A stretch of DNA of 64,000 nucleotides from Armatimonas rosea (GTDB lineage Bacteria > Armatimonadota > Armatimonadia > Armatimonadales > Armatimonadaceae). The position numbers were made by a program, and so were the translations under genes. The notes below the pieces were generated by a model that worked only from the letters and a program-made list of their open reading frames with translations, was not told the DNA's origin and did not search any database. Below are positions 15,725 to 19,341 of this stretch, piece after piece. Each line of letters opens with the position of its first letter. Within the stretch, counting starts at the first letter, position 1. The DNA is taken from contig NZ_JACHGW010000002.1 of assembly GCF_014202505.1 (NCBI RefSeq), positions 310,001-374,000 of the forward strand, read 5' to 3'.

Positions 15725-16714
15725 CTAGGTATGTCCATCTGCAAGTTTGGCATCTTTTGCGATATTGACCCAGGTGTGGACATGCGGCGCGCCGCGGAAG
15801 TGCCAGACCAGAGCCGGGCCTTCGAGCCGCCAGATGTCCCAGATGCCGTCGCTCCCCAGGTCGTCTTGTTTGTAGAACGCGAGGTGGATCTTGTCCAGCC
15901 CACCATTGGCCTCAATCGCCTTCATGGCGTCGTTGGCGTCGGAGGGGCGGTAGGGGGAGAGTAGGCTCTGCATGGTCTTCTGCACGAGCTTCTTCTGATC
16001 CTTAGAGAGCTCCCCAATGGCGATTCCCGCAAACTCTCCGGTCTTGCCCTGAAGCTTGATCTGATCCTCGCTGGGCGCGCTGTCTCGGAGTGCCACCGCG
16101 CGCTGCTTACCGTCTAGGGCTTGGAACACGGCGTTGGCTTGCTGTGCCTGCTGCCAGTAGACATTACCTGGGTGGCTGGGGTCTTCGGTGTCCTTGGGGG
16201 CATGGCCGTAGAAGATCGGTCCGCCAAAGGCCGCGTTGGCGTTGGAGTGCCCATCGGCGCGTAGCGTGACATGGCGGCCGGTGAGCACCCACTCAAACTT
16301 GCCACTTTTAGGGTCCCCAAAGAGCGCGACATGGTACTGGTTCAGCCCGCCACCGTCGTGCTTCATCTGCTCTAGAACCCGCGGGTACCACTCGTCGCTG
16401 GTGACACCGCGCAGGATTCCCTCGACCATCTTTTGCTGATCGGCGGTGAAGATCTCGGCGATAGTCGGCTTGACAATGGCCCAGTTGGCTCCCACCATAC
16501 TGCGCTTGGGATGCTCCCAGGGCATGCAGAGCGTCTCGCGCTGCTTGGGGGTCAGGCTCTCAAAGAGTGTCTTGACCAGGGTCTCGGCTTGGGGCGCTTT
16601 GGTAGTCTGTGCCTCGGCGGGGAGGAGCCCCACGCTCGCTCCTCCGAGGGCAATGCCCCCCACGGTTTGCAAAAACTGGCGTCGGCTCACACCATCGCGT
16701 GATAAATCACTCAT
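15725..16714 (-). CDS. DUF3500 family protein, Tat-exported
   Basis: 329 aa from the ATG at 16714, which has GGAGG spaced ideally upstream. An earlier ATG nine codons upstream would mask this site. The N-terminus has a twin-arginine signal (SRRQFLQTVGGIALGGASVG), so the protein is exported folded, probably with a cofactor or metal. The rest matches DUF3500: repeated short helices plus 'FEWVLTGRHVTLRADGHSNA' and 'GPALVWHFRGAPHVHTWV' histidine-rich strands. The function of the family is not established. Its gene is divergent from blaI, sharing a 200-base intergenic region, and is followed immediately by the M24 peptidase. Confidence 0.85.
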   Translation of the reverse strand: MSDLSRDGVSRRQFLQTVGGIALGGASVGLLPAEAQTTKAPQAETLVKTLFESLTPKQRETLCMPWEHPKRSMVGANWAIVKPTIAEIFTADQQKMVEGILRGVTSDEWYPRVLEQMKHDGGGLNQYHVALFGDPKSGKFEWVLTGRHVTLRADGHSNANAAFGGPIFYGHAPKDTEDPSHPGNVYWQQAQQANAVFQALDGKQRAVALRDSAPSEDQIKLQGKTGEFAGIAIGELSKDQKKLVQKTMQSLLSPYRPSDANDAMKAIEANGGLDKIHLAFYKQDDLGSDGIWDIWRLEGPALVWHFRGAPHVHTWVNIAKDAKLADGHT

Positions 16715-16826
16715 TTTTGTTCCTCCCTTTGGAACCCTCACAAAGTGTCAATTCCGCAGGAGGAGCAGGTTCTCCTGCAACAATCATTCGGTTGTAATTT
16801 TTCCACCCCAGACAGCGATAGTTCTC

Positions 16827-16883
16827 TTGACGACGATTGTGGTTATGGGATACACTCTCGTAACCACGTATGTGGTTAACCAC
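16827..16883 (+). promoter_or_regulatory. blaI promoter with candidate BlaI operator palindromes
   Basis: A plausible sigma70 promoter reads TTGACG (16827-16832), 18 bases, TACACT (16851-16856). Four copies of the half-site GTGGTTA/TAACCAC lie on and after it, at 16840-16846, 16861-16867, 16872-16878 and 16877-16883. The last three form two overlapping palindromes: TAACCAC-GTAT-GTGGTTA (16861-16878) and GTGGTTAACCAC (16872-16883). They straddle the expected transcription start, as expected for BlaI/MecI autoregulation. The core differs from the classical TACA/TGTA operator. The interval from 16715 to 16826 also carries the upstream region of the divergent DUF3500 gene; no clear promoter was seen for it. 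Confidence 0.6.
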
Positions 16884-16914
16884 GGATGTCATTACGATAA
16901 GAGAACGAACTACG

Positions 16915-17325
16915 ATGCCAAAACCCACTCTGGGAAACCTGGAGCTTGAGATCCTGCAGCACATCACCGAGCATGCCCCTGTCACGGTTGGGCAGGTCAC
17001 GGAGAGCTTCGCCGTCCCACGCGGATTCACGCGCTCTACCATCAACACCAGTGTCGAGCGGCTCTTTAAGAAAGGCTACCTGACACGCACCGCGGAGCCG
17101 GAGGGCACGGTCTTTCGCTACTCCCCCGCGGTTCCTTCGGAGGAGGTGCTCAGTGGGCTGGTCGAGCGCTTTGTCGAGAACACCCTCGCGGGATCGCTCT
17201 CGCCTTTTGTGGCCTACTTTGCGCGTCGAAAACCTCTCTCCGCCGAAGAGGTAGCCCAGCTACGCTCTTTAGTGGACACTTTGGAAGCGGCAGGAGCCCA
17301 GGATGAATCTGACAAGCCTCAATGA
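16915..17325 (+). CDS. blaI: BlaI/MecI/CopY-family transcriptional repressor
   Basis: 136 aa winged-helix repressor. The family pattern is 'LGNLELEILQHITEHAPVTV', followed by the recognition helix segment 'FTRSTINTSVERLFKKGYLT' and a beta wing. The C-terminal helices (SEEVLSGLVERFVENTLAG) form the dimerisation part. In the classical system an M56 peptidase cleaves this protein to lift repression. The gene for such a peptidase overlaps by 23 bases downstream. The start at 16915 follows the operator palindromes. Confidence 0.92.
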   Translation: MPKPTLGNLELEILQHITEHAPVTVGQVTESFAVPRGFTRSTINTSVERLFKKGYLTRTAEPEGTVFRYSPAVPSEEVLSGLVERFVENTLAGSLSPFVAYFARRKPLSAEEVAQLRSLVDTLEAAGAQDESDKPQ

Positions 17326-19297
17326 GCTGGTCATGCCCTGGGCCGAGGGGATGTTTCGTGCCTGCTGGCAGGGAGCACTCGCCGTGGGGATGGTCTGGTG
17401 CCTCTGTCGGCTCTCTCCCTGCCTGCCTGCCGCAACCCGCGCGCTACTCTGGTGGCTTGTCTGTCTCAAGGCACTTCTTAGCCTCGTCACCACAGGCCCG
17501 CTGAAGCTGGCTGTGCTCCCTGCCGCCCCTGTGCCAAGCGCCGCGACAGCTGTCTTAACGCCGGTTGCCGTACAGGCAGTTTCGGTGAAAGCGCTTCCCC
17601 CCTTTACATCGATATCGCCGAGCAGTTCGATACGCCAGGCTCCCAGCGTGCCTCTTCCTCGCCCCTCACTGTCGAGTATATTATTCGCCCTCTGGTTGAC
17701 CGGCGTGTTGGCCCTACTTGCCCTTGTTGGTCTAGAGCGGCGGGCAGTGCGGCGGCTGGCGGCTCAGGCCCGTCCCTGCGATGCGGTAACACCGCTTCGG
17801 GAGATCGCACGCGCCCTCGGGCTTGCGGCGTCGCCGCCGCTCTTAGTCTCGGAGCGGGCCAATAGCTCGCTCGTGATGGGGCTGTGGCGGCCCAAGGTGG
17901 TGCTGTGCCAAGCGGATCTGCTGCGTCTCACGCAGAGCGAGCTGGGAGCGGTTCTTGCCCACGAGCTGGCCCATATTCGCCGCAGGGATCTTCTGGCGGG
18001 CATGCTTCCCAATCTGGCGCGGCTGGTGTTCTTCTTCGACCCGTTTGTCTGGCTCGCCTGCCGTGAGTACGATCTAGCACGAGAGGCCGCCTGCGATGCC
18101 GAGGCACTGCGAGTTAGTGGCATGGCACCGGCGGACTACGGGCGCCTCTTGCTCAAGCTGAGCCTGCCCTCGCCGCCGCTCACCCCGACCGCGGGCATAG
18201 TGACTCTCGGCGTCGCATCCCCCGATAGCCTGCTTCTCCGCCGCCGCCTTGAGGGGCTCCGCCGAAGTGGGGGGCTGCCGCGCGGCGGGGCTAGCCTTGT
18301 TCTTCTCGTCACTCTGGGAGCCCTGAGCCTCCATCCCATCCGAGGGAGCGCACGGCCCGCTGCCGCGCGCCACGAAGTGCCGGTCGCAAAGCCTCTCGCT
18401 CCCCCTGCTATCGTCTCGGCTGGCCTGCCAGCCGTGACTCTCCCCAACCTGGTTTTCACGAAAGGAACTGACACAATGTTTACACGCTTCATGGAACAGA
18501 AACCGCTGACTCGTCCCATTGGGCAGAAGCCCAAGCTATCCGCTGCCCTAGCGACAGCCTCTCTCGCCCTAGTCTCCGCTCCCGCACTCCTCGCCCCGGC
18601 TCCCACGGCGGCCCAGACCCCTCCTCCCGCACCGGCGGTCCCCGCGGAGCCTGCCACATCCACGGCACCTGTCGTCCCTGTTGTCCAAGCGGGGCGCTAC
18701 CAGTACACGCTACGGATGGGCAGCTCGTACTCGACACATACCCAAGAGAGGAGGGTCGCTAGCGCCCAGCGCGAGCTGGCAAAGGCGCAACCCGGAGACT
18801 GCCTCGTAGTAGATCGTGACGGCAAGCGCTACCTCATCACCGACCCTGAGACCCTGCGCAAGCTCCAAGACAACGATGCGCCGATGGAGGAGCTGGGCAA
18901 GCAAATGGAGGCCAAGGGGAAAGAGATGGAGCTAAGCAGCAAGCCCATGGAAGCGCTGGGCAAGCAGATGGAAGCCTTTGGCAAGCAAATGGAGGGAAAA
19001 GGACAGGAGCTGGAGGCGCTGGGCAAGCAGCTAGAGGGCGCGTCTGAGACAGAGCGACAGAGCATCCTCGAGAAGATGCAAGCGCGCCAGCAAGAGATGA
19101 AAGCTCCCGCTGAGGAGATGAGACAACTAGGAAAGAAAATGAGAGAGCACGGAGATAAGATGCGCGGGCCAGGCAACGAGATGCGCGAGCTGGGCCAGAA
19201 GATGCGCGTGGCAGCCAAGGAAGCCAATGAGCGCATGGTAACCCTCCTCGACACGGCATTCAAGAACAACCTCGCAGTCGAGCAGAAAGGCTCCTAG
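17303..19297 (+). CDS. M56 (BlaR1/MecR1-like) membrane metallopeptidase fused to a heptad-repeat secreted domain
   Basis: 664 aa. The ATG at 17303 lies inside the end of blaI with GGAG upstream. Residues 1-390 are an M56 peptidase: membrane helices near 17-60 and 125-145, zinc motif HELAH (220-224), third ligand region 'LAREAACDAEAL', and a last helix near 'LVLLVTLGALSL'. There is no penicillin-binding sensor domain. From residue 392 (MFTRFMEQ) the sequence looks like a separate exported protein. It has a good ribosome binding site (GAAAGGAA) just before the ATG at 18476 and its own signal-peptide-like segment (LSAALATASLALVSAPALLA). Residues about 527-655 consist of heptads such as MEALGKQ and MRELGQK. 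Both full-length and internally started products are possible. The sensor function is inferred. Confidence 0.85.
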   Translation: MNLTSLNELVMPWAEGMFRACWQGALAVGMVWCLCRLSPCLPAATRALLWWLVCLKALLSLVTTGPLKLAVLPAAPVPSAATAVLTPVAVQAVSVKALPPFTSISPSSSIRQAPSVPLPRPSLSSILFALWLTGVLALLALVGLERRAVRRLAAQARPCDAVTPLREIARALGLAASPPLLVSERANSSLVMGLWRPKVVLCQADLLRLTQSELGAVLAHELAHIRRRDLLAGMLPNLARLVFFFDPFVWLACREYDLAREAACDAEALRVSGMAPADYGRLLLKLSLPSPPLTPTAGIVTLGVASPDSLLLRRRLEGLRRSGGLPRGGASLVLLVTLGALSLHPIRGSARPAAARHEVPVAKPLAPPAIVSAGLPAVTLPNLVFTKGTDTMFTRFMEQKPLTRPIGQKPKLSAALATASLALVSAPALLAPAPTAAQTPPPAPAVPAEPATSTAPVVPVVQAGRYQYTLRMGSSYSTHTQERRVASAQRELAKAQPGDCLVVDRDGKRYLITDPETLRKLQDNDAPMEELGKQMEAKGKEMELSSKPMEALGKQMEAFGKQMEGKGQELEALGKQLEGASETERQSILEKMQARQQEMKAPAEEMRQLGKKMREHGDKMRGPGNEMRELGQKMRVAAKEANERMVTLLDTAFKNNLAVEQKGS

Positions 19298-19311: not shown

Positions 19312-19341
19312 GGGACGAGCACGCAGGGTTGCGCTCGTCCC
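19312..19341 (+). terminator. Hairpin after the BlaI-M56 operon
   Basis: GGGACGAGC (19312-19320) pairs with GCTCGTCCC (19333-19341). A third copy of the half (gactcgtccc) follows 20 bases later. There is no T-run, so this is a weak or atypical terminator. Nothing else was seen in the 94-base gap apart from a poor TAGAAC box 7 bases before the next ATG. Confidence 0.4.

Follow-up and report, generated by a model that had tools for sequence, protein, structure and literature searches.

A BlaI–M56 operon of Armatimonas rosea with a helical-hairpin domain behind the protease and a possible internal start

BlaR1-type proteases are known mainly as sensors of beta-lactams. At one locus of Armatimonas rosea a BlaR1-like peptidase frame runs on into a segment with a possible start codon of its own, which raises the question whether the gene encodes one product or two and what occupies the place of the sensor. 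The locus was analysed within a window of 64,000 nucleotides (contig NZ_JACHGW010000002.1, positions 310,001 to 374,000, forward strand), and all coordinates are counted from its first letter. The protease part comprises the following features:

17303–19297, + strand: fused open reading frame of M56 peptidase, linker, signal-peptide-like segment and hairpin domain
17360–18178, + strand: Peptidase_M56 domain, residues 20–292 (Pfam PF05569, E 2.8e-40)
17960–17974, + strand: zinc motif HELAH within the M56 domain
18284–18334, + strand: fourth transmembrane helix, residues 328–344 (estimated dG −0.14)

The statement of the initial annotation that the peptidase continues in frame into the C-terminal segment was confirmed by a single frame of 664 codons (664 amino acids) without internal stop. 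The match to PF05569 scores 138.8 bits at a gathering cut-off of 31. Residues H220, E221, H224, E261 and D265 are invariant across 17 sequences, and the zinc motif of the protease is intact at the sequence level. The best match of the predicted full-length model is to cryo-EM structures of BlaR1 (8exp, E 5.5e-6). Shared with BlaR1 and MecR1 are the HExxH motif and the downstream ED ligand region of the M56 domain, membrane helices on both sides of the protease domain, an overlapping BlaI-type repressor gene upstream and the position of a C-terminal outer sensor. In contrast, the present protein carries a hairpin and an extra signal-peptide-like segment and lacks a penicillin-binding sensor. 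The absence of such a sensor had also been pointed out from the outset, and no penicillin-binding (transpeptidase-like) domain was found among the Pfam matches of the fused frame; the NCBIfam model blaR1_generic covers residues 122–285 only, with 70 bits compared to a cut-off of 400. Across the joint, between 17900 and 19309, the fused frame scored best of the three frames in 23 of 23 scoring windows and positive in 22 of them.

In place of the penicillin sensor the frame encodes a domain that could be delimited as follows:

18680–19294, + strand: hairpin domain with alpha/beta base, helix arms and C-terminal strand (21-sequence alignment, AlphaFold model)
18845–19036 and 19046–19264, + strand: helix arms of the hairpin (AlphaFold model)

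The signal-peptide-like stretch and the approximately 12 heptads reported behind the ATG at 18476 were both found, the latter as seven heptads (MEELGKQ to LEALGKQ), a turn and five further ones (MRQLGKK to MRVAAKE). The AlphaFold model (25 rows) has a mean pLDDT of 78.5 and exceeds 90 in the greater part of the domain. The domain consists of a small helix/strand base, an antiparallel pair of helices, 64 and 73 residues long, and a final strand. Within the arms (18845–19264) the charge following the heptad methionine is opposite, ME in the first and MR in the second, which fits an intramolecular antiparallel hairpin. Alignment with 20 of the 24 motif-bearing homologues described below runs end to end at 22–33% identity, including the C-terminal ending, and D55, G94, M97, M154, G165 and A199 are invariant in all 21 sequences. 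The protein shows the base motif WF..GK.Y..xD, glycine-containing heptads and the C-terminal R.LI..A..GLA of the family; it reads LVVD where most homologues have LWFR. No Pfam family above cut-off covers the hairpin domain in ten homologues examined. When the fold of the hairpin was compared with known structures, nothing matched at E ≤ 0.001, and a second comparison returned only generic helical hairpins with Z ≤ 10.7, a range common for long helices. The profile search of PDB sequences yielded two designed antiparallel coiled coils. The C-terminal part of the protein is a genuine domain that has no name in Pfam.

Single-sequence searches with the C-terminal part returned little. Matches at E ≤ 0.01 occurred in 17 of 291 genomes of the phylum, only the own genome being strong; plasmids gave no match, viral contigs no full relative, and a first search of genome contigs 22 pattern stretches of which none was confirmed. 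With a degenerate DNA pattern for the heptad ME.LG[KR]QME, 96 stretches were found in genome contigs, all of which were read. Most are unrelated, for example members of a small Bacillus-type protein family, and five stretches from viral contigs were all judged unrelated by eye. The domain motif is held by 24 of the 96: in 17 loci it is fused to M56, in six it stands alone (Janthinobacterium), and one is cut by the locus edge. The fused homologues come from Massilia, Telluria, Herbaspirillum, Undibacterium, Lysobacter, Pseudoxanthomonas, Arenimonas, Holophagales and others; they span Burkholderiales, Xanthomonadales and Holophagales and have the hairpin directly behind transmembrane helix 4. 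A BlaI-like gene lies upstream in 11 of 19 fused homologues, as assigned by eye.

A profile search matched 16 of the 291 genomes of the window's phylum at E ≤ 0.001. Of these, the own genome (1.7e-46) is the only one in which the base is matched, whereas the alignments of the others begin no earlier than position 65 of the profile and resemble generic coiled coils; the full domain thus occurs in 1 of 291 genomes, and no close orthologue showing conservation of the start at 18476 is among them. In the phylum to which the Holophagales genome belongs, 14 of 396 matched at E ≤ 1e-8. Among these are both fused proteins preceded by a BlaI-like gene (L198, L199, L200) and short stand-alone exported ones of Acidobacteriota, namely L193 (221 aa), L196 (246 aa, lipoprotein-like) and L197 (194 aa), none of which adjoins an M56 gene in the stretches read. 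An order-wide search around the Janthinobacterium genome G294 covered 200 genomes and matched in none but G294. The M56–hairpin fusion therefore already occurs elsewhere, and split versions, which the initial annotation had proposed to look for in relatives, exist as stand-alone exported homologues in Janthinobacterium and Acidobacteriota. In those parts of the literature that the search reached, no report of an M56 protease with a coiled-coil sensor was found.

Free and fused forms also meet at one locus. In all six Janthinobacterium loci (L058, L077, L081, L082, L089, L146) the free hairpin gene lies between adhC and a uvrD-like helicase gene, and in Massilia/Telluria (L070, L073, L129) an M56–hairpin gene follows adhC; L111 has an adhC ending like that of these three. 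The signal peptide of the free form may be a former helix 4.

The M56 proteases of the phylum (L001–L037, L231–L270), with up to 12 matches per genome, display an unusual range of outer domains, named by eye: HAF-type repeats, carboxypeptidase-regulatory-like domains, WD40-like domains, coiled coils and NLDF-type domains.

What distinguishes the present protein is the region between helix 4 and the hairpin:

18437–18466, + strand: TLPNLVFTKG, possible remnant of an earlier NLDF-type sensor domain (shuffle test)
18462–18466, + strand: AAGGA, Shine-Dalgarno-like site nine bases upstream of the ATG at 18476
18476–18613, + strand: internal ATG and signal-peptide-like segment, hydrophobic core at 18536–18586
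after 18613, + strand: possible signal peptidase site TAA-Q

The hydrophobic core corresponds to residues 412–428, with a mean Kyte–Doolittle value (KD) of 1.84 over residues 412–430. The homologues of Massilia, Lysobacter, Pseudoxanthomonas and Holophagales (L069, L070, L122, L126) share the one-frame order, many with a BlaI-like gene upstream, but their hairpin follows straight after helix 4. In the 16 full-length fused homologues no further hydrophobic segment lies between helix 4 and the hairpin: the best estimated dG is 1.45 here and at least 3.07 in all 16 (the 17th, L120, is cut and was left out of the hydrophobicity comparison). Among 62 M56 frames of the phylum with helix 4, a dG below 2 after this helix occurs once, and a mixed set of 35 M56 proteins contains one second hydrophobic segment; both times it is the protein studied here. 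The signal region is not reused elsewhere in the genome (next best E 0.109). In the AlphaFold model residues 343–463 are without helix and of low confidence. The M56–hairpin fusion as such is not novel, whereas the additional segment resembling a signal peptide, which has a possible start of its own, is.

Where the segment came from was approached by likeness. L011, which belongs to the same family of M56 proteins, has TLPNLDFAQG where its outer domain begins, and TLPNLVFTKG resembles this sequence. The likeness was noticed first and then tested, and it was equalled by 3 of 5000 shuffles. L275 has a similar NLDF-type start (NLDFTHGLAGW) after an M56-like helix 4. This is suggestive of an NLDF-type sensor having been removed and the hairpin module inserted in its place. 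In accordance with the layout of stand-alone exported forms, a positive region is followed by the hydrophobic core, TAA-Q and a proline-rich linker. The stand-alone L058 (Janthinobacterium), L193, L196 and L197 (Acidobacteriota) consist of signal peptide, a mostly proline-rich linker and hairpin domain, similar to the would-be product of a start at 18476, but are genes of their own and not placed behind an M56 frame. Against the signal peptides of four stand-alone proteins, 188, 142, 25 and 739 of 1000 shuffles were as good. We infer, with less certainty, that the second hydrophobic segment is the fusion joint of a complete exported hairpin module. About equally well, the extra segment may stem from a donor M56 protein as its helix 4, a comparison equalled by 49 of 1000 shuffles for the sum and by 96 of 1000 for the n-region alone; the ATG at 18476 would then be incidental.

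This ATG is in frame with the M56 frame, and its ribosome binding site had been described as strong. The duplex energies do not bear this out: 399 of 1174 internal in-frame ATGs of the genome pair at least as well with the anti-Shine-Dalgarno sequence (the standard one was assumed, the 16S tail not being found in the fetched locus), so that the site is ordinary for this genome. Among the 841 internal ATGs of 238 genes of the genome, a Shine-Dalgarno motif was counted 86 times and a signal-peptide-like N-terminus 26 times; only the ATG at 18476 has both, where independence (86/841 × 26/841) would predict about 2.7 per 841. The impression that the C-terminal segment looks like a gene of its own is right. 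Export of a separate hairpin protein from 18476 is plausible on these sequence features, and that one gene yields both a membrane sensor-protease and a free hairpin from the internal start is a tentative proposal. Topology favours internal initiation: behind helix 4 the chain is already outside, so that another membrane-spanning segment would place the hairpin in the cytoplasm again, in contrast to the homologues, and only with a fresh start is an ordinary signal peptide at this position topologically sensible.

The gene is preceded by a repressor gene with a conspicuous control region:

16827–16856, + strand: sigma-70-like promoter candidate TTGACG-18-TACACT (consensus scan, 9/12)
16861–16878, no strand: perfect palindrome TAACCAC-GTAT-GTGGTTA, predicted BlaI operator
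16915–17325, + strand: blaI-like repressor gene (Penicillinase_R, PF03965, E 1.6e-24)
19312–19341, + strand: 9-bp inverted repeat 3' of the stop, possible terminator without T run

We infer the blaI start at 16915, the longest frame beginning at 16870; the 3' end overlaps the M56 start by 23 bases. Degenerate copies of the palindrome lie at 16828–16845 and 16877–16894, and with up to three mismatches the window holds three sites compared to a chance mean of 0.59. In the whole genome the perfect palindrome is unique; one additional site with a single mismatch sits in a coding frame and was dismissed as chance. The palindrome is the likely BlaI operator, and its uniqueness would point towards autoregulation of the blaI–M56 operon and of nothing else. 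The intergenic region that contains the operator cluster is bordered on its other side by a divergent gene for a DUF3500 protein with TAT signal (15725–16741, − strand).

Our preferred reading, to which we assign a probability of about 0.5, is a two-gene BlaI–M56 signalling operon in which the outer part of the protease was replaced by a mobile periplasmic helical hairpin, the second segment being the joint and the internal start providing a free hairpin. BlaI would bind the palindrome at its own promoter and repress the operon; a signal from the cell envelope would act on the hairpin and change the protease, which would cleave BlaI, as BlaR1 does. A complete exported hairpin module would have been fused in frame behind M56, its hydrophobic segment still marking the joint. 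Initiation at 18476 would produce a freely exported hairpin protein beside the full-length product and would be the simplest way to put the hairpin domain outside. Somewhat doubtfully, the free hairpin could compete or pair with that of the receptor and determine the operon's threshold; sensor shedding, for which BlaR1 relies on signal peptidase, would here be built into the gene.

A single product is a serious contender, though at less than even odds: a continuous BlaR1-like receptor with the hairpin outside, whose Ala/Pro-rich linker crosses or lies on the membrane, the ATG at 18476 being incidental. The 17 fused homologues, 16 of them full-length and without a second signal, are in accordance with it, as are the coding of the joint in the fused frame, the ordinary Shine-Dalgarno site and the marginal hydrophobicity of the segment. 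However, its dG of 1.45 comes near the range accepted for helix 4 of the homologues (−1.9 to 1.31), and the succession from positive region to proline-rich linker, as in the exported forms, likewise argues against this reading.

Release of the sensor by a signal peptidase cut after the hydrophobic segment, at TAA-Q, would resemble Staphylococcus aureus BlaR1, for which cleavage by SpsB between Gly331 and Gln332, just past the last membrane helix, with shedding of the sensor is described (PMC9834060). Besides this precedent, a motif of the type [AVSTG]x[AG]Q within a few residues of the end of helix 4 speaks for it, which occurs in 12 of 20 hairpin M56 proteins compared to 2 of 15 others, but this pattern is a crude one and the proteins counted are related to each other. 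In the full-length protein the segment would moreover enter from outside and thus the wrong way round, unless helix 4 is not inserted, and we consider this reading unlikely. ANAQ, AHAQ or AQAQ occur right after the last helix, the place of the BlaR1 cut, in L069, L070, L072, L085, L111, L122 and others. In the present protein the motif is missing from helix 4, but TAA-Q stands at the end of the second segment. Release of the sensor may thus be common to the hairpin M56 family, with a different route taken here.

That two genes were joined by a sequencing or assembly error, with a stop codon lost or the frame shifted, would suit the existence of separate hairpin homologues and the other-frame TGA at 18469, four bases ahead of the ATG as in a tight operon junction, but is very improbable: the fused frame codes best in every scoring window at the joint, leaving a frameshift or lost stop unsupported, the frame ending at 18469 scores negative, and the genome is 98.2% complete in 19 contigs.

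Taken with the operon preferred above, the hairpin represents a widespread coiled-coil sensor type without a Pfam name that occurs in protease-bound and in free exported forms across phyla, and the gene of A. rosea may yield both forms from one frame. The Massilia/Janthinobacterium locus offers a ready natural comparison of the free and the protease-bound hairpin. The ligand of the hairpin, once found, would open a non-antibiotic branch of BlaI/M56 signalling.
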